Shown one piece after another: positions 6,216-29,355 of a stretch of DNA of 42,990 nt. The stretch's first letter is position 1, and every line of letters starts with the position of its first letter. The stretch comes from a virus: positions 1 through 42,990 of IMG/VR virus record IMGVR_UViG_3300032278_004244. One strand, given 5' to 3'. A program made the translations under genes and the position numbers. The notes beneath the pieces are model-generated. The model was not told the DNA's origin and did no database searches. It saw only the letters and a list, made by a program, of their open reading frames with translations.

Positions 6216-6250
6216 GGGGCCAGGGTGCCGCGGATCGGGCGCCGCGGACG

Positions 6251-6261
6251 CGAACATCCCG
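6251..6261 (-). promoter_or_regulatory. Late-module motif, copy 5 (upstream of gpJ)
   Basis: The minus strand reads CGGGATGTTCG, 36 bp before the gpJ start. It is one of five copies (others at 9512, 14982, 24820, 29326) of a motif close to TTCGGGATGTTCGCGGGC, each just ahead of a leftward module. GATGTTCG differs at two positions from the Bacteroidota -7 box TAnnTTTG. A promoter or activator site is inferred, not shown. Confidence 0.5.
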
Positions 6262-6282
6262 AACCCGGGATCCCGAACCCGG
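6256..6282. repeat. Tandem 14-bp repeat
   Basis: ATCCCGAACCCGGG at 6256-6269 is followed at once by a second copy (6270-6282, last G lost). It overlaps the gpJ upstream motif and lies between the leftward gpJ gene and the rightward cassette, so it could bind a regulator of either. Confidence 0.6.
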
Positions 6283-6288
6283 CCGGCC

Positions 6289-6296
6289 TACATTGG
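6289..6296 (+). promoter_or_regulatory. Possible -7 box for the rightward cassette
   Basis: TACATTGG matches the Bacteroidota -7 element TAnnTTTG at five of its six fixed positions and ends 22 bp before the first ATG of the three-gene cassette. No clear -33 element was seen. Weak inference. Confidence 0.3.
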
Positions 6297-6318
6297 CGCG
6301 ACCCGCTGCCCCGATCGA

Positions 6319-6519
6319 ATGAGAGCCGACCAGGTCGAGTACGTCACCGAGGCCGGCCCCTTCACGGCGGCCGAGTACGAGATGGTCCGGCGCCGGCCCT
6401 CCACGCTGCCCGTGGTTCGGCCGCTTCGGGTCGGTCCCGTCGAGGAGGAGTATCGGAGGGCCGTCGAGGAGCGGGCCGCGGAGATCACGCGGCGGCTCCT
6501 GCGTGGCCGGAAGCGATGA
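6319..6519 (+). CDS. Small hypothetical protein, opposite-strand cassette gene 1
   Basis: This 66-residue protein begins MRADQVEYVTEAGPFTAAEY and ends in a basic tail (RRLLRGRKR). It is the first of three small genes facing against the late operon. It overlaps the next gene by four bases (ATGA), showing operon-like coupling. The body is acidic and helical. No family was recognised. Confidence 0.6.
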   Translation: MRADQVEYVTEAGPFTAAEYEMVRRRPSTLPVVRPLRVGPVEEEYRRAVEERAAEITRRLLRGRKR

Positions 6520-6734
6520 CCGCGGCCGAGAAGGCCTCCCGTTGCGCCGCCACCCCGACGACGCCGGAGGGCGTTGCCAGCGTAGCGCACGTCCTGTGGC
6601 CCGACCGGTTCGACGGCCCCGCCACGATCACCGAGGCGGACCCGCTCGGCTCGAGCGTCACGCTCGTGGAGCGCGAGGGCGGGGAGTGGGAGGTCACGCT
6701 GGCCGACGTATGGGAGGCGCTCGGTTTTCACTGA
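6516..6734 (+). CDS. Small hypothetical protein, opposite-strand cassette gene 2
   Basis: This 72-residue protein starts MTAAEKASRCAATPTTPEGV and ends TLADVWEALGFH. The middle alternates beta-like segments (SVTLVEREGGEWEVTL), so a small compact fold is likely. Translation is coupled by ATGA to the gene before, and the next gene starts four bases after its stop. No family was recognised. Confidence 0.6.
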   Translation: MTAAEKASRCAATPTTPEGVASVAHVLWPDRFDGPATITEADPLGSSVTLVEREGGEWEVTLADVWEALGFH

Positions 6735-6738
6735 GCCC

Positions 6739-6951
6739 GTGACCGAACCACGGATGGTCGCCTATCTAGGATGGTGGCGCACGACCGAGGTCGAGGTCGC
6801 GCCCGTCCGCTTCGGGTGCGGAGCCGGCGAGGTCCCATGCTTCGAGTGCGACGGGACGGGCGACTGGACGCCGTTCCACCCGGACCCGCCCCCCGAGGGT
6901 GTCCTGTGCGTCGAGTGCAAGGGGACGGGCCGCGTTCTCATCTCGGTCTAG
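6739..6951 (+). CDS. Small CxxCxGxG zinc-finger protein, cassette gene 3
   Basis: This 70-residue protein carries two CxxCxGxG units, CFECDGTG near residues 34-41 and CVECKGTG near 57-64. That is the zinc-binding repeat of DnaJ, here without a J domain. Two repeats can form one zinc site and such proteins often act as small chaperone or nucleic-acid adaptors; the target is unknown. The start is GTG at 6739; an ATG at 6754 is an alternative. Its TAG stop overlaps the stop of the convergent late gene. Confidence 0.65.
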   Translation: MTEPRMVAYLGWWRTTEVEVAPVRFGCGAGEVPCFECDGTGDWTPFHPDPPPEGVLCVECKGTGRVLISV

Positions 6952-7166
6952 TCCACCTCGGGCGCCGGCGGCGTCGCGTCGCCGATGACCCCGCACTGTC
7001 GGAGCAGCGCGGCGCAGTCCCTCGCGACGGCCGCGGCTTCGTACGCCTCGAGCCGGACGAGCCGGGGCAGGAGGTTCTGCTCGAGGCGGGCGGCGTCGAG
7101 GAGCATCCACCGCCCGCGCCACACGCTCAGCGGCTCGCCCCGGTAGAGCACGTCGTCGCCCGTCAT
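6948..7166 (-). CDS. Small hypothetical protein coupled to gpF
   Basis: This 72-residue, mostly helical protein (MTGDDVLYRGEPLSVWRGRW; then an Ala/Leu/Arg-rich helix) overlaps the gpF stop by four bases (ATGA). It is therefore made with the head genes. No family was recognised. Its stop overlaps that of the convergent zinc-finger gene in a shared CTAG. Confidence 0.6.
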   Translation of the reverse strand: MTGDDVLYRGEPLSVWRGRWMLLDAARLEQNLLPRLVRLEAYEAAAVARDCAALLRQCGVIGDATPPAPEVD

Positions 7167-8107
7167 CGGCCGACCCCGTACGCCTGGGCCCGCTCGGCCA
7201 CCGAGGCCGGCACGGCCGCGAGGTCCTCGACGTCGCGCGCCGCGGCGGCCCACCCCTCCGGCGGCGGCTCGAGCCCCTCGAGGTCTCCGGCCGGCGTAAC
7301 GACGGCCCGGCCCGCCTCGGCGGTCCCTCGGAGGATGGCCCGGATCGTGGAGCGGCACCGGTGGTGGTTCGGCGGGCTCGCGTAGCTCCAGAAGTCGTGG
7401 TCGGCCGGGAGGACCACGCCGTCGTAGCTGTTGCAGAGGTCGGTCGTCCGCTCGTCGCCGACCGCGACGTACTCGAGGTACTCCAGCGCGTCGCCGAGGG
7501 CCCGGAACTGGCGCCACCGGCCGACGCTGTACGCGACCTGGCTGTTGTTCCGGACGACGGTCTCGAGGAGCCACGGCGAGAGCGGGTCGACGCCGGCCGC
7601 TTCGAGCGCCTCCTGAATCACCTTGCCGCGGTCGCGGGCCGTGGCCCCGACCTCGATCGCCTCGGCCAGCGCGTCGCGGACCTCGGCGAGGACGTCGGCC
7701 CCGGTCACGCGCGCGATCGTGAACGCCCGCGTCCGCGCCGCGGCCTCGAGCGCGGCGAACTCGTCGTCGGTCATGGCCACGCGGGCCCGGAGCGCCTCGA
7801 CGGCCTCGGGGAAGGGGACGGCGCCCTCGCCGTCGAGGACGACGTCGGCGAAGTCGGACGAGGTCGACCGGCGCACGTGGTCCATCCCCAAGAGCGCAGC
7901 GACGACCATCGCGCCGGCGAGCTCGTCCTCGACCGCCTGGGCCGCGTCGTCGGGGAGGAGCGTCGCCGACGTGTCCGCGGACACACCCGCCGCGATCGCC
8001 GAGGCGGCCGCGGCCACGAACGGCCCGAGCGCCTCGGTCAGCTCGTCGGCGTAGTCCTCCTCCGAGGCCGGCCCGTCGGAGAACGTCCAAAAGGGGCGTC
8101 GCTGAAT
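7163..8107 (-). CDS. Mu gpF-like head morphogenesis protein
   Basis: The C-terminal half has the gpF/SPP1 gp7 signature: DERTTDLCNSYDGVVLP, then PPNHHRCRSTI (about residues 220-255 of 314). These Cys/His residues resemble a zinc-binding or ADP-ribosyltransferase-related site. Family members are minor head proteins added near the portal, consistent with the portal gene just upstream. The start is uncertain. No ATG or GTG precedes the conserved part; an ATT at 8107 has a GGAGG-like element just before it and gives a 70-bp overlap with portal. A CTG overlapping the portal stop is another option. The N-terminal region contains a VSADT palindrome. Confidence 0.75.
   Translation of the reverse strand: MQRRPFWTFSDGPASEEDYADELTEALGPFVAAAASAIAAGVSADTSATLLPDDAAQAVEDELAGAMVVAALLGMDHVRRSTSSDFADVVLDGEGAVPFPEAVEALRARVAMTDDEFAALEAAARTRAFTIARVTGADVLAEVRDALAEAIEVGATARDRGKVIQEALEAAGVDPLSPWLLETVVRNNSQVAYSVGRWRQFRALGDALEYLEYVAVGDERTTDLCNSYDGVVLPADHDFWSYASPPNHHRCRSTIRAILRGTAEAGRAVVTPAGDLEGLEPPPEGWAAAARDVEDLAAVPASVAERAQAYGVGR
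7971..7984. repeat. Dispersed palindrome GTGTCCGCGGACAC (copy 1)
   Basis: A perfect 14-bp palindrome inside the gpF gene that encodes V-S-A-D-T. Related copies are at 14448, 21091, 21154, 30475 and 41674. Confidence 0.8.
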
Positions 8108-9462
8108 GAGACCTCCGGCTCCTGGCTGGCGGTCGTCGCCGTCACGCGCTCGGCCGTGAACGCGTCGCCGTCGTCGTTCGGCCGGGGCAGGTTGTACACC
8201 GTGTAGAACGCCTCGCGCGAGACGGGGACGCCGGCCTCGGCCGCCCGGAGGTAGTGCTCGAACGACGCCGTCGTCCGCCAGTCGAACGACGCCCGAGGGA
8301 ACGCCGTCCGCGCCCGGTCGCCGAACCGGGCCAGCGCGGTCCACCGCCCGAGCGAGCGCTCGACCGTCCGCGCCAGCTCGGCCCCGTGCCACTGGGCCAC
8401 CCGGTCGACCTCGCGCTCCGAGACCTCGCCCTGGGCCCGGGCCCCGACGTCGGAGAGGTCGACCGTGAGCGTCGTCGAGAGGATGCCCTTCCGCATCCGC
8501 TTCTCGAGGAACGTGCAGAACAGCTCGAAGTCCTTCCCGCTCCCGCCCGTGTCGACCGTCGTCGCGCTCTTCGCCGCGAGCGCCGCGCTCGACCCGCTTT
8601 CGATGGCGGCCAGCCGGGCCGTCACGTCGTCGGCCAGCGCTTGCGCTCGGGACAACGCCTCGGGGTCGCCGGGGTCGCCGATCGCGTCGAGGAGCGCGAT
8701 GATCGACGGGACGCCGAACCGGTCGAGGAGGTCGAGCCAGAGCCCGCCGCCGGCCCGGAGGAGCTTCCAGCTCCAGTAGATCCCGTCGAGCAGGCTCTTC
8801 CCCTCGGGCCGGTCCGGCTCGGGGTCGTAGCGGGCCAGGACGAACTTCCGGTCCATGTCCCCGAGCGGCGGCGTGAGCGGGCGCCACGACCCGGCCCGCC
8901 GCGCGAGGAGCGTCCCGGTCCGGTGGACGCGGAAGTTCTTCCGCTCCTCGGCGATCAGGCGGTCGGGGACCCACGTCCCGACCGGCTCGCCGTAGCGGCC
9001 GTCGCCGGGGCGCCAGACGAGCTGGCCGACGGCGAACCGCCGCGTCTTCGACCGGAACAGGTTCCGGAGGTCGGCCCGGAGGTCGAGCTCGGACCGCGTG
9101 ACGAGGCCGACGTAGTCGGCGACCTCGACGGCGAACGGGTCGCCCTCCATCCCCGGCGGCGGGCTCCACTCGAGGTCTCGACCGAGGACGCGGCTGTCGA
9201 TCTGGAACAGGCAGGCCGAGATCTCCGGGTCGGCCTCCATCCGGCGGTACACGTCGGCCCCCTCCTCGGCGAGCGCGTCGTCGACGTCGGGGAGGAGGGC
9301 CTCGAGGACGTCGTACCCGCGCTGCCAGCGGGGCGTCGTCTGGACGACGCCGGCGAGCTCGCGGTCGGAGGCCGTCCGGTCGCGGTCGTCGACGGGCTCG
9401 ACGTCGAGCCGGCCGGACGAGTCGATCGGGCCGCCGAGGCGGAGGAAGTCGAAGAGGCCCAT
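8038..9462 (-). CDS. Portal protein (Mu gp29-like)
   Basis: This 474-residue protein matches the Mu gp29/DUF935 portal family in order of elements: an N-terminal MGLFDFLRLGGP, ALAEEGADVYRRMEADPEI, then SRVLGRDLEW, a central FVLARYDPEPDRPEGKSLL, WSWKLLRAGGGLWLDLLDRFG, and a helical ILSTTLTVDL segment. Portals form the dodecameric vertex through which DNA is packaged. Its place between terminase and gpF agrees. The start is ATG, 50 bp downstream of a conserved late-module motif. Confidence 0.85.
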   Translation of the reverse strand: MGLFDFLRLGGPIDSSGRLDVEPVDDRDRTASDRELAGVVQTTPRWQRGYDVLEALLPDVDDALAEEGADVYRRMEADPEISACLFQIDSRVLGRDLEWSPPPGMEGDPFAVEVADYVGLVTRSELDLRADLRNLFRSKTRRFAVGQLVWRPGDGRYGEPVGTWVPDRLIAEERKNFRVHRTGTLLARRAGSWRPLTPPLGDMDRKFVLARYDPEPDRPEGKSLLDGIYWSWKLLRAGGGLWLDLLDRFGVPSIIALLDAIGDPGDPEALSRAQALADDVTARLAAIESGSSAALAAKSATTVDTGGSGKDFELFCTFLEKRMRKGILSTTLTVDLSDVGARAQGEVSEREVDRVAQWHGAELARTVERSLGRWTALARFGDRARTAFPRASFDWRTTASFEHYLRAAEAGVPVSREAFYTVYNLPRPNDDGDAFTAERVTATTASQEPEVSFSDAPFGRSPTGRPRRRTTPTS

Positions 9463-9480
9463 GGGCGCGCGTGTGGGGCG

Positions 9481-10953
9481 TTAGAATCCGCGCCGGCCGC
9501 GGCCCGCCCCACGAACATCCCGACGCGGCGCCGTCCCGTAGGTGTGGCGCGGCCGCGGCGCCGTCGTCCCGCCCACGGGGAGCGCCTCCTTCTCTGGCTC
9601 CCTCGCGCCCCACCGGCTGTGCGTCCCGTACCGGCCGGCGTCGACGGCGTGGTCGAGGTACTTGACGACGTCTTCGGTCACCTCGCCGGTCGACCTGTCG
9701 ACCTTCCGGCGGTACGCCCGGGCCTCCTTGAGGAGGTTCGCCGACCGCCTCGTGATGCAGAGGGTGTAGCCGCGGACCGTGACGATCCCCTCCTGGACGC
9801 TCTTGTTGGCCGGCTGGGCGTTGGGGTACCCGTGCTGCTGGAGGTAGCGGATCCGGTCCATCTCGTGGTCCCAGAACTGGTCCCGCCGCCGGTGCTCCTC
9901 GGGGATCGCCTCGTCCATGAGCGCCACCAGCTCGGCGTTCCCCAGCCGGCGCTCGTAGACCAGCTCGTCCCAGTACAGCCGCGGCCGCCGCCCGAGGACG
10001 TCCTCCACCGCGCAGGCCACGAGCGCCGACGGGTTCGTGAACCCGAAGTCCCCGCCGTAGACGACCTCGAGCCCGTCGGGGATCGCGTCGACCTCGACGA
10101 TCGTGGGGTAGACGGCCGCCTTGTGCGTCCCCCGCATCCCGAGGCCCCACACCCGCCACGCCTCGGGGTCGCCGTCGACGAGCTCGGCGCCGTCCCACTC
10201 GGGGAGCTTCGGGTCGTAGTCGAGGCCCCAGTCGACGACGACCTCGCCCGACGGCATGAGGTACCGGGGCGCCCCCTCTTCGACCTCGGCGATCTGGCCG
10301 GCCGGGGCGAACGGGTTGTCGAGGTAGGTCGAGACGTCGAGGTGGGCGTCCTCGCGCTTCATGGCCCGGTCGATCCACTCGACGGCCTCGTCCGGATTCC
10401 AGTCGAGGACGATCTTCAGCGACGTCCGGTACCGGAGCTGGCGCCAGTCCTCGGCCGAGAGCTCGTTGGCCTCGTTGCAGTAGAGGACCTCGCGGGAGTT
10501 CCCGCGGAGCTTCTGCGACTGGTCGGCCCCGAGCCACCCGAGCTCGCAGGCCCCGACGCGGTACCGGTTCTCCGTCTTCTGGTGGAGCCGGTCGTCGTAG
10601 CGCCCGGTCGGCTTGAGGACGTCCTCAAAGAAGTCCTTCATCGCCGTCGCGCGGAGCGTGGCCAGCGCCTTCCGGACCGTCTCGAACTGCCACCGGCCGG
10701 CCTGGGCGGCCGGGTCGTGGGCCGCGACGAGGAGCCCCTGGTTCACGGCGAACGTCTTCCCGCTCCGGGTGCCGCCCTGGAGCCCGAGGATCTTCTTCGG
10801 CCCAATCGGGCCGCCCGGCGCGAAGTCGCCCCGGTCGAAGAGGAAGTCGAGGACGAGCTGGAGCAGCCGCGTCCCCTGGAGGCTGAGGACGCCGGGGACC
10901 GCCGCCCCGGTCGGTCCGCCGGCCGAGGCGCCGAGGCCGGCCGGGTCAGTCAT
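9481..10953 (-). CDS. Terminase large subunit
   Basis: This 490-residue packaging motor has a Walker A GGTRSGKT (residues 60-67), a Walker B-type EVLYCNEANEL (about 155-164) and a C-terminal RNase H-like nuclease start YGGDFGFTNPSALV (Asp302). The second nuclease region contains VKYLDHAVDAGRY (about 445-457). These order and spacing features are those of phage terminase ATPase-nucleases. The small subunit lies upstream and the portal downstream. Its start overlaps the preceding small gene by eight bases. The last 16 codons hold a copy of the late-module motif. Confidence 0.9.
   Translation of the reverse strand: MTDPAGLGASAGGPTGAAVPGVLSLQGTRLLQLVLDFLFDRGDFAPGGPIGPKKILGLQGGTRSGKTFAVNQGLLVAAHDPAAQAGRWQFETVRKALATLRATAMKDFFEDVLKPTGRYDDRLHQKTENRYRVGACELGWLGADQSQKLRGNSREVLYCNEANELSAEDWRQLRYRTSLKIVLDWNPDEAVEWIDRAMKREDAHLDVSTYLDNPFAPAGQIAEVEEGAPRYLMPSGEVVVDWGLDYDPKLPEWDGAELVDGDPEAWRVWGLGMRGTHKAAVYPTIVEVDAIPDGLEVVYGGDFGFTNPSALVACAVEDVLGRRPRLYWDELVYERRLGNAELVALMDEAIPEEHRRRDQFWDHEMDRIRYLQQHGYPNAQPANKSVQEGIVTVRGYTLCITRRSANLLKEARAYRRKVDRSTGEVTEDVVKYLDHAVDAGRYGTHSRWGAREPEKEALPVGGTTAPRPRHTYGTAPRRDVRGAGRGRRGF
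9512..9522 (-). promoter_or_regulatory. Late-module motif, copy 4 (upstream of portal)
   Basis: The minus strand reads CGGGATGTTCG, 50 bp before the portal start and inside the terminase 3' end. It is the only copy in coding sequence. A regulatory role is inferred from recurrence. Confidence 0.45.
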
Positions 10954-11203
10954 CGTAGCCGGGCCGGTAGGTCTGGTCCTCCATCCACTCGGCCAGCTTC
11001 TTCGCCCCGGACACGGCGCCCCGGACGGTCTTGTAGCCCTTCCCGACGCCGACCCGGTTATTCCACGACGCGCGCGGCTCGTCGAGCTGCTCCGCCCGGC
11101 ACGAGTACCCGCCGGACCGCTTCACGACGACGGAGAGGACGTACGGCGCGCCCGTCGGCGGGGCGTCGTAGGGCTCGGTGTGGACGACGTCGCCGGGCCT
11201 CAT
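10946..11203 (-). CDS. Small hypothetical protein between terminase subunits
   Basis: This 85-residue protein starts MRPGDVVHTEPYD and has VLSVVVKRSGGYSC, which suggests a small SH3-like beta fold, then a basic helix (VRGAVSGAKKLAEWMEDQ). It overlaps the terminase small gene by four bases and the large subunit by eight, so all three are translated together. No family was recognised; an accessory role in packaging is possible. Confidence 0.65.
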   Translation of the reverse strand: MRPGDVVHTEPYDAPPTGAPYVLSVVVKRSGGYSCRAEQLDEPRASWNNRVGVGKGYKTVRGAVSGAKKLAEWMEDQTYRPGYDD

Positions 11204-12045
11204 GCGTCCCCTCGCGTCCGGGGCGGGACGATCTCGACGCGGACCTCCCGCAGCGGCTCCCCGCCCGTCGTGAGGTCGAGCCGCTCCGCGAACAGCCCGA
11301 GGTGCTTGCCGAGGAGCTCGTCGGCCTTGGCCGCGTCGTGGAGCTCGACTTTCTGCGACCCGTCGGCGTTCTTCGTCACGCTCTTGACGAGGTGGAGCTT
11401 CCCGGCCTCGCGCATCCGCGCCAGGTCGAACACCGCCCGCTCCCGCGTCTCGGGGTCGCCGTCGACGAGCGCCGTCGCCTCCGGGTCCTCGTCGAGCTCG
11501 ATCTCCATCCGCTCGATCCTGCGCCGCATCGACTTCTGGAGCTGGCGCGACGCCTCGGCCCGCTCCGGGTCCTTCTCGCCGCTGCCGACGCGTCGCTCGA
11601 CTTGGAGCTCGGCCCGGGCCCTCTCGATCGCCTCCGCCAGTGGGACGCGGACCCGCGGCGTGTGCTCGTACTCCTCGAACCGAAGGAAGTCCTCGGCCGT
11701 CGCCGTCGCCCGCTGCTCGATCCGGTAGAGCACGTCGTTCGCCTCGATCCGGAGGGCCGCCAGCTTCTCCGCGATCGCCGTCCGGACGTGGACATTTGTG
11801 GACATCCGCCACCCGTGCTTCCGCGGCGCGGCGTAGCCCATCGCCCTCGAGACGGCCGTGTGGCTCCGGCCCATTGTGAAGTAGAGGTTGACCCACTCCT
11901 GCTCCTTCGGCTTCAAGAGGTCGTACGCCTCGACCCCGTCCTCGCGGCCGTGGTAGGCCTCGCAGAAGTCGCGCTCCCGCTTCTTGAGCTCGAGGAACGC
12001 GCTCGAGCCCGGCTTCGGGACGTCGGTCGTGTCGGGGCGAGCCAT
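11200..12045 (-). CDS. Terminase small subunit (probable)
   Basis: This 281-residue protein has an N-terminal DNA-binding region (LKPKEQEWVNLYFTMGRS, then HTAVSRAMGYAAP) typical of small terminases: an acidic/aromatic helix followed by a helix-turn-helix that recognises pac or cos DNA. A long charged helical middle (residues 110-210) fits the oligomerisation domain. It ends REVRVEIVPPRTRGDA, close to the family's usual C-terminal beta strand. It lies two genes upstream of the large subunit, with coupled starts. The start is ATG at 12045. Confidence 0.75.
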   Translation of the reverse strand: MARPDTTDVPKPGSSAFLELKKRERDFCEAYHGREDGVEAYDLLKPKEQEWVNLYFTMGRSHTAVSRAMGYAAPRKHGWRMSTNVHVRTAIAEKLAALRIEANDVLYRIEQRATATAEDFLRFEEYEHTPRVRVPLAEAIERARAELQVERRVGSGEKDPERAEASRQLQKSMRRRIERMEIELDEDPEATALVDGDPETRERAVFDLARMREAGKLHLVKSVTKNADGSQKVELHDAAKADELLGKHLGLFAERLDLTTGGEPLREVRVEIVPPRTRGDA

Positions 12046-12055
12046 GGGCGACGGC

Positions 12056-12688: not shown

Positions 12689-13278
12689 AGCGCGTAGCGG
12701 CGGAGGAGGGCGAGGGCGACACCCGGCGCGTTGTCGGCGAGGAGCTGCCAGAGCCGGCTGTAGACGATGGAGTGGGCGTGGCCACGGACGGCGAGGTAGG
12801 CCACGTCGACCTCCTCCTGCGACAGCCCACTCGTGAGCTCGAGCACGCGGCGGAACGCCTCGTCAGCCATCAGGAGGCGGTGGGGGTCCCGGCCCGCCAG
12901 GTGGCGGAGCCAGTCGTGGGCGACGGCGGCCTCGGCCAGCGCGAGCGGGTCGACGTCGAAGACCGCGCAGACGGCGAGGCCGGCCCGGCCGACGGAGGCG
13001 AGGTCCGTACGGAACCCCTTGGGCACGGTGAACCGCTCGTGCTCGGCGTCGAGGCGGGCGTCGCGGCCGAGGTCGAACCGGCAGTCCTCGGCGACCGTGA
13101 ACGCGGCGCCGTCGAGTCGGCGGTCGAGCGTGAGGTCGAGCTCGTCGAGCCGGGCGAGCGACGGCCGTAGGCGGGCGACGGGGAGGGCCGCCTCGGGGAA
13201 CGCGTCGAGCGCGGTCGGGAGCGGCCGGACGCCCCGGGGCGTCACGCGGAGGAGTTCCGGCGGGAGAGCGACGCGCAT
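12685..13278 (-). CDS. DUF1353-family protein
   Basis: This 197-residue protein carries the DUF1353 signature: FTVPKGFRTDLASVG (about residues 87-101) and AAVAHDWLRHLAGRD further on, with a conserved His-Asp-Trp. DUF1353 proteins are common in tailed phages beside lysis or tail genes; their biochemical role is not settled. The gene is coupled by ATGA to the cupin gene upstream. Confidence 0.75.
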   Translation of the reverse strand: MRVALPPELLRVTPRGVRPLPTALDAFPEAALPVARLRPSLARLDELDLTLDRRLDGAAFTVAEDCRFDLGRDARLDAEHERFTVPKGFRTDLASVGRAGLAVCAVFDVDPLALAEAAVAHDWLRHLAGRDPHRLLMADEAFRRVLELTSGLSQEEVDVAYLAVRGHAHSIVYSRLWQLLADNAPGVALALLRRYAL

Positions 13279-13820
13279 CAGACGGCCTCCGGGTCGATCC
13301 CGTGGCGGCGGAGCATGGCGACGACGTCGGCCTCGGCGTACGCCGCCGGCGGCGGCGGGAGCGGGCTCCCCGGCTGGTAGAACCGGACCAGGAGGAGGCA
13401 CCCCTCGGGCCCGGCGACCGTCGCGTGCGGGACCTCCTGGGGGACGATGAAGTAGCCGCCCGGCGCGATCTCGTAGTCGTGGTACCGGGCCCCGTCGTCG
13501 GCCCGGCCGGGGAGCGTCCCGATCCGCATGGTCCCGTCCCCGCGCATGACCCAGACGTCCTCGTGGAAGCTGTGGACGTGGGGCCGGAGCTCGGCGCCGG
13601 GGGCGAACCGGAAGAGCCCGACGTACCACGCGTCGTCGGCGACGTCCTCGACGAGCCGGCCGGTCACGCCGTTGGCCGTCTCGGCCCACGCCTCGGTCAG
13701 GGCCACGGCGTCGATCCGGTCGGGGTACTCCATCTCGACCGACCAGAGGACGGCGTCGATCCGGTCGTTCGCCCGGTGGATCCGGTCGATGGCGTCGTCG
13801 GCGGTGGCGATCCCGAGCAT
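13278..13820 (-). CDS. Cupin-domain protein
   Basis: This 180-residue protein has a cupin barrel. Motif 1 is ELRPHVHSFHEDVWVMRGDG (HxH...HE, about residues 77-96), and motif 2 is APGGYFIVPQEVPHATVAG with a final His. A metal site of three His and one acidic residue is therefore plausible. It lies between DUF1353 and the holin candidate, with coupled starts. Cupins span many enzymes and sugar-binding proteins, so the substrate cannot be assigned; it is not a standard lysis gene. Confidence 0.75.
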   Translation of the reverse strand: MLGIATADDAIDRIHRANDRIDAVLWSVEMEYPDRIDAVALTEAWAETANGVTGRLVEDVADDAWYVGLFRFAPGAELRPHVHSFHEDVWVMRGDGTMRIGTLPGRADDGARYHDYEIAPGGYFIVPQEVPHATVAGPEGCLLLVRFYQPGSPLPPPPAAYAEADVVAMLRRHGIDPEAV

Positions 13821-13824
13821 GGCG

Positions 13825-14200: not shown

Positions 14201-14968
14201 TCACAGGCCGGCGCGGTCGAGGGCCGCCCACGTGTTCGGCCCGGCGAGGCCGTCGACCTCGAGGCCGCGGCGGGCCTGGAAGGCCCGGAGGGCGCGGTCG
14301 GTGACGGGCCCGAAGTCCCCGTCGATCTTGCCGGCGTAGAGCCCGGCCGTCTTGAGCGCGCGCTGGAGGTCGCCGACGTCGCGGCCGCGGGCGCCTCGGC
14401 GGAGGAGCGGACGGGGCTGGGTCGTCACCGAGGCGGGCGGGGTCGGTGTGTCCGTGGACACGTCGCCGGCGTCCCGCGTGGCCATGTGGCGCGCGAGGTC
14501 GCGTCGGACCGCGTCGCAGTCGACCCGGTCGCCGGGGCACGCCTTCTTGGCGCCGGCCTCCCGGTGCCCGATCACGTTCTCGATCGCGATGCCGTAGCGG
14601 TCGACGAGGCCGGCCGCCAGCTCGTGCCAAGCCGCGCGCTGGGCGTCCGTCCACTCCTCGCCCTGGACGCCGTGGTAGTCGTCGCCGTGGTGGCCGGAGA
14701 AGCAGACGCCGACGCTGACGGGGTTCATCCCGCCGTCGCGGCAGTGGGCGCCGACCTGGCCCTCGGCGCGGCCCTCCTCGACCGTCCCGTCCTTCCGTAC
14801 GACGTAGTGGTACCCGATCCTTGAGAACCCGCGTTGCCGGTGGGCCCGGTCGATGTCCGCGGCGGAGGGGTCGCCGGGCCAGGCTGCGGTGTGGAAAACG
14901 AGGTGGGTCGTACGGCGACGCTGAGCCACGGGAGCGCGGGCGGTGTGGGCCCAACCTGGCCCGCACAT
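14201..14968 (-). CDS. Endolysin: N-acetylmuramoyl-L-alanine amidase with peptidoglycan-binding domain
   Basis: The N-terminal part is an Amidase_2/PGRP domain: LVFHTAAWPGDPS holds the first zinc His, GYHYVVRKDGTVEEGR and VGVCFSGHHGDDYHG follow, and GHREAGAKKACPGDRVD gives the second His and the Cys ligand. A linker with VSTDT leads to a C-terminal peptidoglycan-binding domain (GDLQRALKTAGLYAGKIDGDFG). It cuts the amide between MurNAc and L-Ala. The ATG at 14968 is only 14 bp from the late-module motif; the GTG at 14929 (242 residues) is an equally plausible start. Confidence 0.88.
   Translation of the reverse strand: MCGPGWAHTARAPVAQRRRTTHLVFHTAAWPGDPSAADIDRAHRQRGFSRIGYHYVVRKDGTVEEGRAEGQVGAHCRDGGMNPVSVGVCFSGHHGDDYHGVQGEEWTDAQRAAWHELAAGLVDRYGIAIENVIGHREAGAKKACPGDRVDCDAVRRDLARHMATRDAGDVSTDTPTPPASVTTQPRPLLRRGARGRDVGDLQRALKTAGLYAGKIDGDFGPVTDRALRAFQARRGLEVDGLAGPNTWAALDRAGL
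14448..14461. repeat. Dispersed palindrome, variant GTGTCCGTGGACAC (copy 2)
   Basis: It lies in the endolysin linker between amidase and cell-wall-binding domains and encodes V-S-T-D-T. It has one central mismatch to the consensus. Confidence 0.75.
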
Positions 14969-14981
14969 GTGCCCGAGCCCG

Positions 14982-14992
14982 CGAACATCCCG
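14982..14992 (-). promoter_or_regulatory. Late-module motif, copy 3 (upstream of endolysin)
   Basis: The minus strand reads CGGGATGTTCGCGGGC in the short gap between gpW and endolysin. It marks the start of the lysis/packaging block. A promoter or boundary function is inferred. Confidence 0.5.
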
Positions 14993-15015
14993 ATCCCGTG
15001 CCGGGCCCGCCGGCG

Positions 15016-21725: not shown

Positions 21726-21728
21726 GGT

Positions 21729-22991: not shown

Positions 22992-23042
22992 GGTCGGGGG
23001 GGTGCTGGGGGCGGGGCGGTCTTCGGGGCGTCGGCCGCGGTG

Positions 23043-23070: not shown

Positions 23071-23078
23071 GGTCGGCT

Positions 23079-23459
23079 CTACGCCTCGACGATTGTCCCC
23101 TTGTCGAGGAGCGCGCGGACGGCCGGGTCGGCCGAGGGGAGCCGGTAGCGGGCGCCGGGGTGGAGGAGCCGGTGGGCGCCGGCGACGACGGCCGCGAGCT
23201 GGCCTTGGCCCTCGACGAGCCGGAAGTGGCCGAGGCCGTCGTCGTCCGTGTCGGGCGTCGGGGCATCGGCCTCCGCCTCCTCGGCCTCGGCGACCGCGTC
23301 GAGGTAGGCCTCGACGTCGCCCTTGAGGACGTCGCCGGTCTTCCCGGTCGCGGTGATCTGGCCGCCCTCGACGAGCGCGGCGACGTCGAGCCCGTGCTCG
23401 TCGGCCAGCGCCCGGGCGGCGTCGTTGAGGGTCGGGGCGGTGCGGTCGGCGTCGGCCAT
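23079..23459 (-). CDS. Small head-tail joining candidate with PSBD/HeH-like domain
   Basis: This 126-residue protein starts with a helical segment, TLNDAARALADEHGLDVAAL, then GQITATGKTGDVLKGDVEAYL (residues 10-52). That pattern resembles a peripheral-subunit-binding or HeH/SAP-like fold (a short helical DNA- or protein-binding domain). An acidic linker and a C-terminal beta segment follow. It lies between gp37-like and sheath genes, so a connector or structural role is inferred. The exact fold is uncertain. Confidence 0.5.
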   Translation of the reverse strand: MADADRTAPTLNDAARALADEHGLDVAALVEGGQITATGKTGDVLKGDVEAYLDAVAEAEEAEADAPTPDTDDDGLGHFRLVEGQGQLAAVVAGAHRLLHPGARYRLPSADPAVRALLDKGTIVEA

Positions 23460-23496
23460 GGCGGTGGGCGCCCGGGAGCGCGGGGGAGGAGGGGCC

Positions 23497-24138
23497 TTAG
23501 AGGGCGGTGGCGGCCTCGACGACGAAGGGGTCGCCGGGGCCGAGGGAGTCGAGCGGGTTCGGCTCGGGCGCGGCGAGCTCGGGGAGCCGGTCGGCCGCGA
23601 CTGTCCACGAGACGGCCGTCGACCACGTCGCCGTGAACCGGTCCTGGCCCTCGCGGTCCTGGGCGAACCCGGACCGGCCCGGGACGGCCGCCTCGACGCG
23701 GGCCGACGTCGGGCCCACCGTGAGCGTCCGCGGCTCGCGGAGGAGGAGGGCGAGGCAGGCCGAGGCCTCGGCGGCCTCGTCGAGGAACGGGTCGTCGGCC
23801 CCGCCGGCCGAGAGGCCGTAAGACGTGAGCGTGAGCGTAGCCGGGACGCGGAGGAGGACACGGTCGGGCGCCTCGCCGTCCTCGCCGAGCAGGCGCTCGG
23901 CGTCGTCGACGTGCTCGACCGAGGCGGCCCCCGGCGTGAGCGAGATCGTGAGGCCGGCCTCGGGCCCGAGCGGGGGCCCGTAGAGGACGACGCCCTCCCC
24001 GGTCGCCGCGTCGCCGCCGTCGGAGCACGCGGCGGCGAGGGCCGCGCCGAGCGCGCCGAGCAGCCGGGCCGCGGTCTTCGCGGCCCCGCGCGTCGAGGTA
24101 GGCGATAACACTTCGCCAGGGGAGAGCGTCTCGGACAC
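23497..24138 (-). CDS. Mu gp37-like tail/connector protein
   Basis: This 213-residue protein starts at GTG (24138), four bases from the gpG-like stop. It begins with an Ala-rich helix near residues 20-40 (AARLLGALGAALAAAC), then beta-rich segments (LTISLTPGAASVEHV, TLTLTSYGLSAGG). It sits between the gpG-like and connector genes, as gp37 does in Mu. The call is from position and general composition, and could also be a tail terminator. Confidence 0.45.
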   Translation of the reverse strand: MSETLSPGEVLSPTSTRGAAKTAARLLGALGAALAAACSDGGDAATGEGVVLYGPPLGPEAGLTISLTPGAASVEHVDDAERLLGEDGEAPDRVLLRVPATLTLTSYGLSAGGADDPFLDEAAEASACLALLLREPRTLTVGPTSARVEAAVPGRSGFAQDREGQDRFTATWSTAVSWTVAADRLPELAAPEPNPLDSLGPGDPFVVEAATAL

Positions 24139-24141
24139 GGG

Positions 24142-24765
24142 CTAGAGGTCGCCGGCGATGAAGTCGAGCGCGAGCCGGTCGAGCTCGGCCTCGTCCTGGT
24201 CGTCGAGCCCGTAGACCTGGCGCTCGGGGAGCGTGACCGAGTTTCCGCGGCCGGCCCGGTCGGTCCCGGCTGTGATCGCCGCGGCGTAGGGGAGGTTCGA
24301 GCCCCAGGCGGCGTGGTCCGGGCCGGAGTCGACGGACTGGGAGCCGAGGAAGTCGGCGTCGTCGACGAGCGGCTTCGAGCTCCCCTTCCGCGCGACGGTC
24401 GACTCGGCGTTCGGGGCGAGCCGGTCGCCGTCGACGTCGCGGCCGTCCTTGATCCGCTTGACGGTCGAGGACCGGCCGTGCTCGGCGATCCGCCGGGTGA
24501 GCGGGGACGGGTCGGCCACGCGGCGCTCGACGCCGTCGAGGAAGCCGGCGAAGGCCTCGAGGCCGGTGAACTCGGCGCGCATGGTCTCGGCGTCTGTGGA
24601 GGCGGTCTCCGTGGAGGTGTCCGTGGAGGAGCCGGAAGCGGCTCCGGCGTCGAGGCCGACGACCTCGACGGCCGGAGTCGCGGTGTCCGCCTCGGGGACG
24701 GCGTAGGCGGGCGCGGCGACGAGCGCCAGCAGGAGGAGGGCGAGGAGGCGGGGGAGCGTTCCCAT
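24142..24765 (-). CDS. Mu gpG-like / tail completion protein, with signal-peptide-like N-terminus
   Basis: The C-terminal 145 residues match the virion morphogenesis family: LTRRIAEHGRSSTVKRIKDG (residues about 89-108) and LPYAAAITAGTDRAGRGN, ending QDEAELDRLALDFIAG. These proteins complete the head-tail junction. In the full frame from ATG 24765, the first 22 residues (MGTLPRLLALLLLALVAAP) look like a signal peptide, followed by a Thr/Ser/Glu linker with repeated TDT. If the ATG at 24582 is used instead, a normal 146-residue protein results. Confidence 0.75.
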   Translation of the reverse strand: MGTLPRLLALLLLALVAAPAYAVPEADTATPAVEVVGLDAGAASGSSTDTSTETASTDAETMRAEFTGLEAFAGFLDGVERRVADPSPLTRRIAEHGRSSTVKRIKDGRDVDGDRLAPNAESTVARKGSSKPLVDDADFLGSQSVDSGPDHAAWGSNLPYAAAITAGTDRAGRGNSVTLPERQVYGLDDQDEAELDRLALDFIAGDL

Positions 24766-24819
24766 CGGGCGTCGGGGAGGGGTGAGTCGGACGCTACCGG
24801 GGCCGCCCGCCGGCGCCCG

Positions 24820-24830
24820 CGAACATCCCG
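24820..24830 (-). promoter_or_regulatory. Late-module motif, copy 2 (upstream of gpG-like)
   Basis: The minus strand reads TTCGGGATGTTCGCGGGC, the consensus itself, 55 bp before the gpG-like ATG at 24765. It lies in the 145-bp gap after the collagen-containing gene. A promoter role is inferred. Confidence 0.5.
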
Positions 24831-24910
24831 AAGGGCGGCCCCGCTGCGGGCTCGCGGCTCTCCTCCACCCCGCGGTTGTCGGTCAGTGAGACCACGCCGC
24901 CCGACGAGAT

Positions 24911-26254
24911 CTAGGTCAGGGCGAGGAGGACGATCGTTCCGGAGGTGAGGCCGCCGGAGGGGTCGCCCGCCGCGAGCCGGACCGACGAGACGGGGGCCGT
25001 GGAGCGCCAGGACCCGCCGGTGACGTAGGCCCCGGCGTCGTCGCCGGCGAGGCCGCCCTTCATCGTCCCGGTCACGGACTTGTAGCCGGGCGTGTTCGAC
25101 ACGGTGACCTCGCCGGTCTCCGTCTCGTCCGTCCCGCCGAGGACGGCGGCGCCCCGCCCGAGGACGACGCCGTCGGCGCCCTTCGCGGACCGGCCGTCGG
25201 ACCCGGCGCCGTGTCGCCAGCCGAGGAGGGCGTAGTCGTACCGGCCGTTCCCGGCCGCGTCGTCGCCGTTGAACGTGAGGACGTAGTCGCGGCTCGTGAC
25301 CGCGGTCCGGTAGAGGTCGCACCCGATGAGGAGGAGGCGGAACGCGAGGTGGCCCGACCACGCGCCGGCCGAGGGCTCGGAGAACTCGACGGCCGGGACG
25401 AGCCCGTCGACGGTGGCCCGCGCGAGCTCGGTCCACACGCCTCCGGCGCCGGCCGGGCCCGGCTCCCCCTGCGGTCCGGGCGGCCCGGCCTCTCCCTGCG
25501 GCCCAGGTGGACCCTGCTCCCCGTCGGCTCCGCTCGTGAGCATGCCGACCTCGGCGCCGTCCTGAAACACGGTGATGGTGCCGTCGCCGTTGTCCGTCGC
25601 CGTGACGGACGAGCCGTCGGCGCCGTCCTGGCCGTCGGCTCCGGGCAAGGTGGCGGCCCACTGGGCCTCGGAGAGCGGCGGGTCGTCGTCGGTCGTCGAG
25701 AGGTAGCTCTCGTACGCGCTCGGCCCAGGCGGGCCAGGGGCGCCGCCGGTCTGCGGCGCCGGCGACCGGGCAGGGGGCGTCGCCTGGCCGCGCCGGTCGC
25801 GGAGCCGGGCCGATAGACCCGAGCGAGCCATCGGCGCGACGGACGCGACGGGGAGCCGGGGCCGGTCGCCCTCGTCCTCGGACTGGCCGTCGCCGGCGCC
25901 GGCGTCGTAGGCGTTTCCGACGAGGCCCTCGAGGAGGTCGTCGGCCTCGCGGCGCTTGTCGGCCGCCGTCTCCTCGCGCTCGGCCTTCCCCCAGGCCTGA
26001 TACTGTGCCCGTGCGAGGACGGCCTCCCGGAGGATCTCCGCGCGGGTCTCCGCCGCCGCGTCGGCCTTCGCGTCGTCCGTCGGCTCGGGGTCGAAGTCGA
26101 TCGCGAACCCGTGCCGGAGCGCCCGGCTCCGGAGCCACGTCAGGGCCTTCCGGTGCGCGTCGACCTCGAACCCCGTCCCGATGGCGGCCGCGAGCTGCTG
26201 GCGGTGGCGGTGGGAGAACTCGGCGAGGACGTCGTCGGGCGTGGGGGCGGGCAT
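24911..26254 (-). CDS. Collagen-like fusion protein with connector-like N-terminus
   Basis: This 447-residue protein has two parts. Residues 1-115 are helical (VLAEFSHRHRQQLAAAI, then EADDLLEGLVGNAYDAG) and resemble Mu gp36/DUF1320 connectors only loosely. Residues 142-275 contain Gly-x-Pro runs (GAPGPPGP; GEQGPPGPQGEAGPPGPQGE), and the phage collagen-associated motif SAYESYLSTTDDDPPLSEAQW. The remaining C-terminus is beta-rich. It lies between capsid and gpG-like genes, a connector slot, so it may be a head-anchored fibre. A single continuous frame supports a real fusion. Confidence 0.6.
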   Translation of the reverse strand: MPAPTPDDVLAEFSHRHRQQLAAAIGTGFEVDAHRKALTWLRSRALRHGFAIDFDPEPTDDAKADAAAETRAEILREAVLARAQYQAWGKAEREETAADKRREADDLLEGLVGNAYDAGAGDGQSEDEGDRPRLPVASVAPMARSGLSARLRDRRGQATPPARSPAPQTGGAPGPPGPSAYESYLSTTDDDPPLSEAQWAATLPGADGQDGADGSSVTATDNGDGTITVFQDGAEVGMLTSGADGEQGPPGPQGEAGPPGPQGEPGPAGAGGVWTELARATVDGLVPAVEFSEPSAGAWSGHLAFRLLLIGCDLYRTAVTSRDYVLTFNGDDAAGNGRYDYALLGWRHGAGSDGRSAKGADGVVLGRGAAVLGGTDETETGEVTVSNTPGYKSVTGTMKGGLAGDDAGAYVTGGSWRSTAPVSSVRLAAGDPSGGLTSGTIVLLALT

Positions 26255-26285
26255 GGGTCGCGCCCTCCGGCGCGGCGTGAAGGAC

Positions 26286-26321
26286 AGCGGCCCCGCCCCG
26301 GAGTACTAGGGCGGGGCCGCT
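26286..26321 (-). terminator. Strong hairpin downstream of major capsid gene
   Basis: AGCGGCCCCGCCC and GGGCGGGGCCGCT form a perfect 13-bp stem with a 10-base loop. It lies 80 bp beyond the capsid stop and before the next leftward gene. It lacks a T-tract, but it could terminate or attenuate so that capsid exceeds downstream products. Confidence 0.65.
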
Positions 26322-26400
26322 GGGCGGGCCGGGGCCCGCGTGGCGCCGGTGGCTCAGGCCGGCGTGGGGGTGGACCGCGAGCGGCCCGAAACCGGCCGCG

Positions 26401-27447
26401 CTACGTGCTCGAGGCGTCGCCGCGGGAGATGGCCGGGGCCGGGGGAATGAAGAACGGCTTCGACTCGATGAACAGGTCGATCTGGCTCATGTCGTCGGCG
26501 TAGGCCGCGATGACCGAGAGGGCCGACGTGGCCTGGTCGCCGAACTGGTCGAGGCGGACCGAGAGGAGCCGCCACGGCGCGCCGGAGTCGACGGCGAGGA
26601 GCTCCGTGTCGCCGATGACGTCCTTGAACCCGGCCGCGACCGCGCCGCCCGGCTGGCCGAAGTCGGCCAGGCCCGGGTGGTCGTACTGGGCCGCCATCTC
26701 CATGAGGACGAACGACCCGATCTGGATGCCGCCGTCCTCGCGGACCCGGGCCGGCACGCGGGTGTCGTTCGAGATCGCGTTGACCTTCTTGATCAGCGCG
26801 GCGAACACGACCCGGCCGACGTAGATGTCCGTCGTCGCGTACCCGCGGCGGGCCCGGGCCGTCTTGAGGTTCGAGAGGTCGAGGTGGACGACCGAGATGT
26901 CGGTCGCGTCGAGTGTCCAGTCGGCGCTCGGCGTCCACGCGTGGACGTCGCCGTACTTGACCGAGAACACGTCGACGACGGTCCCGGCCTTGTCCGCGAT
27001 CGGGTAGTCGATCCGGCCGGTGAGCGACTGGGCCCCGAGGGCCTCGCGCGTCTTCCGGTGGATGTCGACGTGGCGGCCCGAGATCCGGTCGGCGTAGTTC
27101 TGGACCGACTGCCGGCCGCCCGGGAGGAGCCGGCGGTTGTTGTACTCGGCCGCGCCCATCCCGTCGACCGTCTTGATCGGCTGCGGGCGGATGAGCGAGA
27201 TGCCCGAGCCGTCGCCGGGGACCGAGATGCCGGGGGCGCCGCGGAGGACGAGCGGGACGGCCCGGGTGACCCGGGTGATCTCCTCGACGGGGACCGTCAC
27301 GTCGTCCCAGTAGTCCCGCGTCCGCTCGGGGTAGAACGTGTCGGTCACCGGCGTCCCGTAGGACTCCCGGTTCTCGATGACCTGGGCGATCCGCTCCGGG
27401 CGGAAGAGGCTCTGGACCTCGGTGATGTTCGGGCGGGTGTGCGGCAT
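26401..27447 (-). CDS. Major capsid protein (probable)
   Basis: This 348-residue protein lies between the decoration protein and the connector-type gene, and after the protease: the usual site of the major head gene. It begins MPHTRPNITEVQSLFRPERI and has VTDTFYPERTRDYWDD, VVFAALIKKVNAISNDTRV and FVLMEMAAQYDHPG. The pattern is closer to the lambda E-type capsid family than to Mu gpT, though the family call is tentative. A strong hairpin follows the gene, and an SD-like AGGAG lies before the start. Confidence 0.75.
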   Translation of the reverse strand: MPHTRPNITEVQSLFRPERIAQVIENRESYGTPVTDTFYPERTRDYWDDVTVPVEEITRVTRAVPLVLRGAPGISVPGDGSGISLIRPQPIKTVDGMGAAEYNNRRLLPGGRQSVQNYADRISGRHVDIHRKTREALGAQSLTGRIDYPIADKAGTVVDVFSVKYGDVHAWTPSADWTLDATDISVVHLDLSNLKTARARRGYATTDIYVGRVVFAALIKKVNAISNDTRVPARVREDGGIQIGSFVLMEMAAQYDHPGLADFGQPGGAVAAGFKDVIGDTELLAVDSGAPWRLLSVRLDQFGDQATSALSVIAAYADDMSQIDLFIESKPFFIPPAPAISRGDASST

Positions 27448-27481
27448 CGTGCGGCGCTCCTGTCGGCGCGGTGGGGTCGGT

Positions 27482-27497
27482 GGACCGGTGGGGGTCC
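27482..27497 (-). repeat. GGACC-GGTCC hairpin upstream of capsid
   Basis: A five-base stem (GGACC/GGTCC) in the 96-bp gap before the capsid gene. Similar stems lie at 27955 and 27988, so this looks like a repeated intercistronic element. Confidence 0.4.
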
Positions 27498-27543
27498 TGG
27501 AGGAGCGGGTGAGCCGGGCCCGCCGGTCGAGGGGGGAGGTCGG

Positions 27544-27933
27544 TTAGCGGGGGTAGATCCGGAGGGCCTCCAGCTGGGAGAGCGCGGCGGCGTTCGGGGC
27601 CGCCGTCGCCGAGCCGTCCGCGGCCGTCGCGGCGACGAGGCCGTGGACGGCCACGGTCCCCTCGACGCGGACGAGGGCCGACGTCTGCTCGGCCGTGTCG
27701 ACGTCCTGGTGGTGGACGAACACGCCGGTGACGAGGTCGGCGCTGTCGGTCCCCTGGACCCATCGGACCTTCTTCCCCGCGTCGCCCGCGGTCCCGTCCT
27801 TGAGGAGCGTCCCGAGGACGTAGACGCCGTCGTCGGCCTTGAGCGGCTTCACGAGGTCGACGTCCGGCTTGTTGTGGCCGGTGTTGATGTTCCGCTCGGA
27901 GTGGGTCGTGAGCGTCGTCTTGAAGTCGGACAT
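27544..27933 (-). CDS. Head decoration-like protein
   Basis: This 129-residue protein (MSDFKTTLTTHSERNINTGH, then VKPLKADDGVYVLGTLLKDG and ALVRVEGTVAVHGLV) fits small capsid stabilising proteins (DUF2190/decoration-type), which are beta-rich and sit before the major capsid. The last residues (EALRIYPR) resemble a capsid-binding end. The assignment is by order and pattern. Confidence 0.6.
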   Translation of the reverse strand: MSDFKTTLTTHSERNINTGHNKPDVDLVKPLKADDGVYVLGTLLKDGTAGDAGKKVRWVQGTDSADLVTGVFVHHQDVDTAEQTSALVRVEGTVAVHGLVAATAADGSATAAPNAAALSQLEALRIYPR

Positions 27934-27954
27934 CGGGTCGGTGCGGCGGGGTGT

Positions 27955-28003
27955 GGACCGCTGGCGGTCCGGTGTGGGGCGGGGCGTGGACCGCGGTCGG
28001 TCC
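27955..28003 (-). repeat. Two tandem hairpins upstream of the decoration gene
   Basis: GGACCGC-TG-GCGGTCC (27955-27970) and GGACCG-CGGT-CGGTCC (27988-28003) are similar stems 33 bp apart. They lie between the protease stop and the decoration start and may process or stabilise the head mRNA. Confidence 0.55.
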
Positions 28004-28019
28004 GGGGGCGCGCTCGGCG

Positions 28020-29243
28020 CTAGAGCTTGACGTGGGAGGCCATGACCTTGTCGTCGGCCGCCTCCTCACCGGAGTCGGAGAAGTCGACGGCCCCGCCGAG
28101 GTAGTCCCGCGACGGGATCACGGCGTCGAGGACGGCCGCGAACTCGGCGAGCGGGTCGGCCGCGCGGGCCTGGCCGTCGGCGTCGGCGAAGTCGACCGTG
28201 TCCGCGTCGGCGCCGAACACGGCGTCGGCGAACGCGACGACCCGGTCGACGCCGTCGCCGTCGAGCCGGCCCGCGAGCGTCTGCCGGAGGGCGGCCAGGC
28301 GCTCGGCCTTCCGTTCGTTCCGCATCCGCTCCATCTGGGCCTCCATGGCCCGGAAGCGCGGGTTGTCCGAGAAGTCGTCGGTCTCCGGAGCGGGCGTGCC
28401 CGCGGCCGGCGTGCCCGCGGGCGTGCCCGAGGCGGGCGGCGTCGGCGTCGGGTCGGACGGCGTGGGCTGGCGGGGCGTGGGCGTCGGCATGGTCGTGGGC
28501 GCCGGGTCGGCGAAGTAGAAGTCGTTGGCGTCGACGAGCGTGTTCTCGGCGATCCCGAGGGCCCGTCCGAGCGCGCGGAGGAGGTCGACGTCGGGCGAGT
28601 GGAAGTCGCCGTCGAGGAGGTGTCGGAGCGTGACGGCCGAGACGGTCTCGTCGTCGGTTGAGACGGCCGCGGCCAGCGCGACGAGCGCGGCCGACTGGTC
28701 GGCGTGGCCGTTCGCGTCGCCGTAGCGGGCGACCTCGTTGGCGAGGATCCGCGAGAACGGGCTGTAGCCGTCGGCGAAGGCCACCGGGACGGCCTCGCCG
28801 CCGGCGGTCTCGGACACCCCGACGGTCAGCTCGACGTCGTCGGCCGAGAACGCGAGGTCGGGGAGCCCCTTCACGGCCGGCGGCGTCCCGCCGAGGAGCG
28901 CGACGTGGTGGGCGTAGCGGCGGCCCTGGGGGTCGCGGCCAAAGCCGACGGACCGCTGGTTGTAGAACCCGTCGTTGACGGCGTCCTTGACGGCGTCGAG
29001 CGGCTCGCCGTCGGCGAACAGGCCCGTGACGGTGGCCCCGGTGAAGGGGTGGGTCGTCTGGCCGGCCGAGAAGTTGGTGAACCGGCCGTAGCGCGGGCCG
29101 CCGGTCCCGCGGACGTGGCCGATCGTCATGGGGGCCTCGCCGATCTCGTTCGTGACCGAGGCGGCCTCGGCGAGGTCGGCGTCGGTCAGCGTGTGGCCGT
29201 TGTGGTGCTGGCCGGCGTAGGCGAGGAGGACTCGGCGGGGCAA
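28020..29243 (-). CDS. Mu I-like prohead protease/scaffold
   Basis: This 407-residue protein carries the Mu gpI protease pattern: LLAYAGQHHNGHTLTDADLA, PMTIGHVRGTGGPRYGRFTN and NQRSVGFGRDPQGRRYAHHVALLGG. The C-terminal half is a charged helix (RAMEAQMERMRNERKAERLAA) typical of internal scaffolds. It cuts itself and the scaffold during prohead maturation. The start is TTG at 29243; no upstream ATG fits. It comes first in the head-shell genes, after a late-module motif 83 bp upstream. Confidence 0.75.
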   Translation of the reverse strand: MPRRVLLAYAGQHHNGHTLTDADLAEAASVTNEIGEAPMTIGHVRGTGGPRYGRFTNFSAGQTTHPFTGATVTGLFADGEPLDAVKDAVNDGFYNQRSVGFGRDPQGRRYAHHVALLGGTPPAVKGLPDLAFSADDVELTVGVSETAGGEAVPVAFADGYSPFSRILANEVARYGDANGHADQSAALVALAAAVSTDDETVSAVTLRHLLDGDFHSPDVDLLRALGRALGIAENTLVDANDFYFADPAPTTMPTPTPRQPTPSDPTPTPPASGTPAGTPAAGTPAPETDDFSDNPRFRAMEAQMERMRNERKAERLAALRQTLAGRLDGDGVDRVVAFADAVFGADADTVDFADADGQARAADPLAEFAAVLDAVIPSRDYLGGAVDFSDSGEEAADDKVMASHVKL

Positions 29244-29250
29244 GGGCGGG

Positions 29251-29268
29251 GCGGCACCGTGGTGCCGC
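29251..29268 (-). promoter_or_regulatory. Hairpin in protease leader
   Basis: GCGGCACC and GGTGCCGC pair across a two-base loop, seven bases upstream of the protease TTG start. It lies between the late-module motif and the start, so it may shape the leader RNA. Confidence 0.4.
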
Positions 29269-29325
29269 GGGGACCGTGGGGCGGGAACGTGCCCCCAGGG
29301 TCCGCATCGGCCGATCCCGCCCCCG

Positions 29326-29336
29326 CGAAGATCCCG
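29326..29336 (-). promoter_or_regulatory. Late-module motif, copy 1 (upstream of protease)
   Basis: The minus strand reads TTCGGGATCTTCGCGGGG, one change from the consensus (C for G). It is 83 bp ahead of the protease start and begins the head-shell module. Confidence 0.45.
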
Positions 29337-29355
29337 AACGGGCCCGGCGCGGACC

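Follow-up and report, generated by a model that had tools for sequence, protein, structure and literature searches.

The 42,990-base virus record IMGVR_UViG_3300032278_004244 (75% G+C), analysed over its whole length and called the window here, carries five copies of a short motif ahead of its late genes. We propose with considerable confidence that each motif is the box bound by an activator at one of five late promoters, which would be switched on together via a phage-made protein. Each promoter would consist of a 13-bp box at approximately -48 to -36, an unconserved 23-bp spacer and a -10-like hexamer, nAnnnT, at -12 to -7, with transcription predicted to start 0–47 nt ahead of the gene that opens each leftward block. 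A protein that the phage encodes and makes earlier would bind the boxes, whereupon host RNA polymerase would start the five blocks at once. Both the promoter function and activation rather than repression are what we infer from sequence.

A box and a -10-like hexamer at fixed spacing

A search of the window with TTCGGGATGTTCGCGGGC, allowing up to three mismatches, returns exactly five matches, all on the minus strand (6246-6263, 9507-9524, 14977-14994, 24815-24832 and 29321-29338); dinucleotide shuffles give a mean of 0.12 matches and never reached five. A preliminary description of this DNA had reported the five minus-strand copies, each 15–85 bp ahead of the first gene of a leftward module. 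Both observations stand; in the gene map, the 18-mers precede the nearest downstream start codon by 30, 44, 47, 49 and 77 nt. The blocks headed by the five sites encode protease and capsid, neck and tail, lysis, portal and baseplate J functions. The placement between genes that had also been claimed needs qualification, as the copy at 9507-9524 coincides with the 3′-terminal part of the large terminase gene (9481-10953) and is not strictly intergenic. The conserved core of the motif is TCGGGAT(G/C)TTCG, the last five bases of the motif as first described being weaker, and the consensus of the 13-nt box in the window is TTCGGGATGTTCG.

The partner element of the box was first noticed when the sites of a related phage, G001, were aligned, which revealed a TAnCGT-like hexamer at a 23-nt offset; the offset was then applied to the window. 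There, a hexamer nAnnnT lies exactly 23 nt past the 13-nt box at all five sites (CACCCT, GATTCT, CAGGTT, TAGCGT and GACCCT), each with A in position 2 and T in position 6, the two positions that matter most in a bacterial -10 element. The background rate of nAnnnT is 1.1–1.7%, and none of 200,000 random five-position sets, in the window or in G001, had the hexamer five times out of five at any offset from 10 to 39 nt. Loosening the box to three mismatches brings in 37 places in the window, only the five sites among them having the hexamer at 23 nt, and the reversed-sequence control contains no match to box plus hexamer. When repeated 11-mers followed by nAnnnT were sought blindly, the same sites came out on top in the window and in G001, and four of the five were recovered in a further relative, G844.

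Our promoter comparison covers these three phages, with 15 sites in total. Across them the box columns GG....TCG are invariant, and the hexamer has A at position 2 in 14 sites and T at position 6 in all 15. At fixed spacing the pooled hexamer match has a chance probability of ~10^-25, a figure that is overstated because it treats as independent sites that are partly inherited between related phages. By the same count the window's five sites alone, whose box differs from that of the other two phages, give ~10^-10.

The arrangement of the elements also makes sense for an activated promoter. No conserved -35 hexamer occurs at -35 to -30 across the aligned sites, and the centre of the box, counted from the hexamer, falls near the -41.5 of a class II activator site, the start itself being predicted as seven bases past the hexamer. 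A box at about -48 to -36 without a conserved -35 hexamer is the layout of a class II activated promoter. The more general signs of late promoters are present as well: a repeated coding-strand element precedes structural and lysis blocks at all five sites in the window and, except for an intragenic second site, in both relatives, and a -10 element stands at fixed distance in 14 of the 15 sites. The late promoter and the activator site, offered in the preliminary description as separate options, both gain support and appear to be one and the same thing, a box with a -10-like element at constant spacing from it.

Equivalent placements of another box in two relatives

G001 (IMGVR_UViG_2786546972_000001; 49 kb) was the sole relative returned by a first portal search; its terminase is 79% identical to that of the window and its late region is co-linear. 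G844 (IMGVR_UViG_3300048630_000722; 51 kb; portal 52%) was retrieved with a portal alignment of the window and G001, independently of the motif. Both are IMG/VR records and syntenic with the window.

A search of related phages for the motif had been suggested; the window motif turned out to be absent from G001, which has five copies of a different box instead. The upstream regions of the G001 protease and J genes have CCCGGCGGGGTGTCG in common, and five copies of CGRCGGGGTGTCG, all on the minus strand, head the equivalent blocks, each with the hexamer. G844 has exactly five minus-strand copies of CGACGGGGTGTCG, located before J, portal, lysis and protease genes and inside a tail-region gene equivalent to that in G001; the hexamer is in register at four. 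The hexamer therefore stands at the 23-nt spacing in 9 of the 10 relative sites, and the box type common to both phages is CGRCGGGGTGTCG. The window box reads as a TTCG-N5-TTCG direct repeat, the G844 box a perfect CGAC-N5-GTCG dyad.

Two further features of the relatives bear on the proposed promoters. The endolysins of the window (14201-14929), G001 (L055:3088-3957) and G844 (L123:17212-17985) are of different types and have an equivalent promoter position upstream; we count the retention of a lysis-block promoter in all three phages, although the endolysins match different families, in favour of the promoter assignment. In addition, a tRNA-Met (CAT) separates the portal gene from its proposed promoter in G001 (L054:17287-17363, minus strand) and in G844 (L123:9225-9298, minus strand), the tRNA 5′ end being no more than 1 nt from the predicted portal-promoter start (17363 versus 17362, and 9298 versus 9297). 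The tRNA position was not used in setting the predicted start. The two placements are probably one inherited arrangement, and the late transcript of these phages may start at the tRNA 5′ end. No tRNA was found in the window.

The five predicted promoters of the window

All elements described here are on the minus strand, and the matches of the downstream genes confirm the gene names given in the preliminary description. Promoter 1, heading the protease, decoration and capsid block, has the box TTCGGGATCTTCG (29326-29338) and the hexamer GACCCT (29297-29302), with a predicted start at ~29290 and the TTG of the head maturation protease (28020-29243; phrog_976) at 29243. Promoter 2 has the box TTCGGGATGTTCG (24820-24832) and the hexamer TAGCGT (24791-24796); transcription is predicted to start at ~24784, and the ATG at 24765 opens the gpG-like virion morphogenesis gene (24142-24765; PF05069) that leads the tail block. 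For promoter 3, which heads the endolysin, holin-like and terminase block, the box is ATCGGGATGTTCG (14982-14994) and the hexamer CAGGTT (14953-14958), with a predicted start at ~14946 and the GTG at 14929 of the endolysin (Amidase_2 and PG_binding_1). The box of promoter 4, GTCGGGATGTTCG (9512-9524), is the one that reaches into the terminase gene; it is followed by GATTCT (9483-9488), a predicted start at ~9476 and the portal ATG at 9462 (portal protein, 8038-9462; PF06074), the first gene of the portal block. Promoter 5 again has TTCGGGATGTTCG as its box (6251-6263), with CACCCT at 6222-6227, and heads the baseplate J and tail-end block. Its predicted start, ~6215, coincides with the GTG of the J gene (5115-6215 in the gene map; PF04865), whose transcript would be leaderless or nearly so.

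Several other genes deserve mention in their own right. Beside promoter 2, a 447-aa protein with collagen-like repeats (24911-26254, minus strand) has a counterpart of only ~149 aa in the relatives; a collagen-like fibre part appears to have been gained or lost between them and the window. A cupin-domain protein (ChrR-like; 13278-13820, minus strand) lies within the lysis and terminase block. In the rightward region, an 861-aa protein with ParB N-terminal and ParB HTH domains (39457-42042, plus strand) is unmatched in G001 and G844. The scanned set from the early regions L054-L056 and L124-L125 includes a Mom-like DNA modification protein, PAPS reductase domains, a DNA methylase and a Lar-like anti-restriction protein.

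The record may be incomplete at the ends of the window. Terminase searches for further relatives returned just distant Bacteroidota sequences, mostly a terminase without neighbours and unusable for comparison, and no terminase match occurred among 244 genomes from the class of the genome G240. The distant terminase relatives suggest Bacteroidota as the host phylum.

A candidate activator

When all predicted proteins were compared, the only non-structural gene common to the three phages was one encoding an HTH_17 protein, located directly upstream of the first late promoter (29512-30459, minus strand, in the window). The window protein has 315 aa, with an N-terminal HTH region (phrog_686), a CxxC segment and a predicted C-terminal winged helix (HTH_17). 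Those of the relatives have 117 and 133 aa and match only the C-terminal domain. In G001 the gene is far from the integrase and adjoins the late region.

The HTH_17 Pfam match reaches 29.7 bits for the G001 protein, against a cut-off of 27; the window protein scores 18.6, below the cut-off but alignable with its counterparts in G001 and G844. The window C-terminal domain is modelled as a winged helix (pLDDT 78), and its best Foldseek matches include BldC, RacA, a phage P2 DNA-binding protein and a mycobacteriophage excisionase, with E values of 0.02–0.09 that are suggestive only. A single-sequence structure model of the G001 protein was poor. Counting against the fold assignment, EF-hand proteins score as high as winged-helix matches in a second structural comparison, so the winged-helix assignment leans on the profile match and Foldseek.

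The putative recognition helices vary together with the boxes. Those of G001 (STDTVYAALY) and G844 (STEAVYAALY), which have a box type in common, are alike; the helix of the window protein (GKDPVYRAVS) differs, as does its box. Based on gene position, conservation and this pairing of helix and box, the HTH_17 protein is the best candidate for the activator of the late promoters, and we regard the chances that it has this role as about even.

Weighing the alternatives

Several observations count against our proposal. The window hexamers are weak, with T at position 1 in just one, and one of the five G844 hexamers deviates (CTATTT), though TATTTG is found one base further. The second promoter of G001 (L055:13136-13150, minus strand) and of G844 (L124:8160-8172, minus strand) is inside coding sequence, one gene downstream of the window's site before the gpG-like gene. 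As for the activator, three phages with one paired change of box and helix are thin evidence of its identity, the relatives lack the N-terminal HTH that the window protein has, and a host regulator may be the protein that binds the boxes.

This last point belongs to the most serious alternative, for which we see a sizeable chance, clearly below even, namely that some other protein binds the boxes. This could be a regulator of the host, another regulator of the phage, or an unrecognised phage sigma-like factor standing in for the -35 contact. A constant distance from box to hexamer would fit any promoter-specificity factor, the three phages encode several further small HTH proteins and their early genes are mostly unidentified. 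Yet the box differs between the window and its relatives, which argues for a phage-specific partner, and the 16-base box (up to two mismatches) is rare in other Bacteroidota genomes, with for example 13 matches in 4.4 Mb of G240 (sampled DNA of 71% G+C) versus five in the 43 kb here. Among the families listed for 58 early proteins (25 of 29 Pfam, 25 of 40 PHROG) we saw no Mor/C, Ogr or sigma family, the last being absent from the 25 Pfam families in particular; nor is Mor/C among the families listed for the candidate activator. Besides the HTH_17 gene, one weak cross-phage link was found (37366-38136 of the window with G844). It is also conceivable, if improbable, that the boxes are operators for a repressor that silences the late promoters in a lysogen: G001 is temperate, encoding an integrase and an S24-type repressor, and an operator can extend into the -35 region. 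A spacing of exactly 23 nt and the lack of a conserved -35 hexamer suit a positive factor better, operator positions usually vary, and every copy serves late blocks only.

A recombination boundary joining exchangeable modules, the remaining option of the preliminary description, finds some footing in the location of the sites at module borders and in the lysis genes after one copy, which differ between relatives. It is disfavoured, to the point of being highly improbable, by the restriction to one strand, the exact distance to the hexamer, the intragenic second site of G001 and G844, and the recurrence of the placements in two relatives with a box that has changed in all five copies together. 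Chance or composition, including terminators or hairpins, might also be invoked, since repeated words and stems are frequent at high G+C; with shuffle and reversed-sequence controls yielding near nothing and replication in two relatives, we assign this explanation a negligible probability. Hairpins and terminators were rejected because the 15 sites, folded as 70-nt stretches, have energies typical of these genomes. A coding explanation was also rejected: a naive open-reading-frame finder takes an ATG in three copies as a start, one copy has ATC, and the frame at 24820 closes after 10 codons.

Further searches and significance

Searches of other viral contigs returned mostly background. The exact 16-mer box gave 40 matches, and in the stretches examined no hexamer followed at 23 nt. 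The G001/G844 box plus hexamer gave at least 80 matches, which, among those listed, were single per contig apart from the two known phages and the viral contig L148. The latter has three copies of box plus hexamer 105 nt apart (L148:18-269, minus strand), probably a tandem repeat. One contig combines a tape-measure relative with a box match, which lies inside a long open frame and was taken as chance, and a de novo motif search in two distant portal relatives found noise only.

The proposal gives this phage group, for which the annotated phage collection searched contains no close relative, a specific and testable scheme of late-gene control, and the promoter definition (box, 23 nt, nAnnnT) should be usable for annotating other phages. 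If the winged-helix protein is indeed the activator, it would add a new protein type beside Mu C and P2 Ogr, and the paired difference in helix and five boxes would amount to a small natural experiment in the co-change of regulator and site, with rewiring of a whole regulon.

Comparison with known systems

We found no description of this promoter set in the literature searched. The preliminary description saw a partial likeness between the motif and the -7 box of Bacteroidota sigma-A, whose consensus is TAnnTTTG (PMC9723704). The motif is not itself a -7 or -10 box; the -10-like hexamer lies 23 nt downstream, shares the TA..T positions with the -7 box and lacks TTTG. TAnnTTTG occurs in register in none of the 15 hexamers, and the 13-bp box stands where an upstream promoter element would be.

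The closest functional parallels are found among phage activators. In Mu, the late promoters Plys, PI, PP and Pmom, which include ones preceding lysis and gene I, have non-consensus -10 elements and are activated by C protein bound just upstream of or over -35 (PMC4461284). As in the C regulon, several separate late promoters, including one ahead of the lysis genes, would here respond to one phage activator. The differences are that no Mor/C-family protein is among the families listed, the box is another one, the five promoters occupy other gene borders and the candidate activator is an excisionase-like winged helix; the window phage has a terminase and RecT, and Mu transposase was not seen. 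The P2 late promoters PP, PO, PV and PF, activated by the zinc-finger protein Ogr (CX2CX22CX4C), share the short element TGT-N12-ACA (PMC3931495). Multiple late operons, one shared element and one phage activator would be common to P2 and the window phage, whereas TGT-N12-ACA was not found in our phage, Ogr is not among the families listed and the box is at about -42. The P2 site is farther upstream, near -55.

With respect to fold, the modelled C-terminal domain of the window protein resembles BldC, Pukovnik Xis, RdfS and the P2 DNA-binding protein of structure 4lhf, which we take to be P2 Cox. To our knowledge, no protein of the excisionase/BldC type is known to serve specifically as activator of a late regulon with several promoters. 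There is precedent for a regulatory role, as RdfS activates promoters and excisionase-type proteins also regulate transcription (PMC11963761). We tentatively suggest, at a likelihood a little short of even, that an excisionase/BldC-like winged helix has become a dedicated late master activator in a group of phages, so far undescribed, that have high G+C and Bacteroidota-like terminases, its specificity rewritten at all five operators between relatives. The proposed circuit is both Mu C-like and P2 Ogr-like, and a member of neither system.

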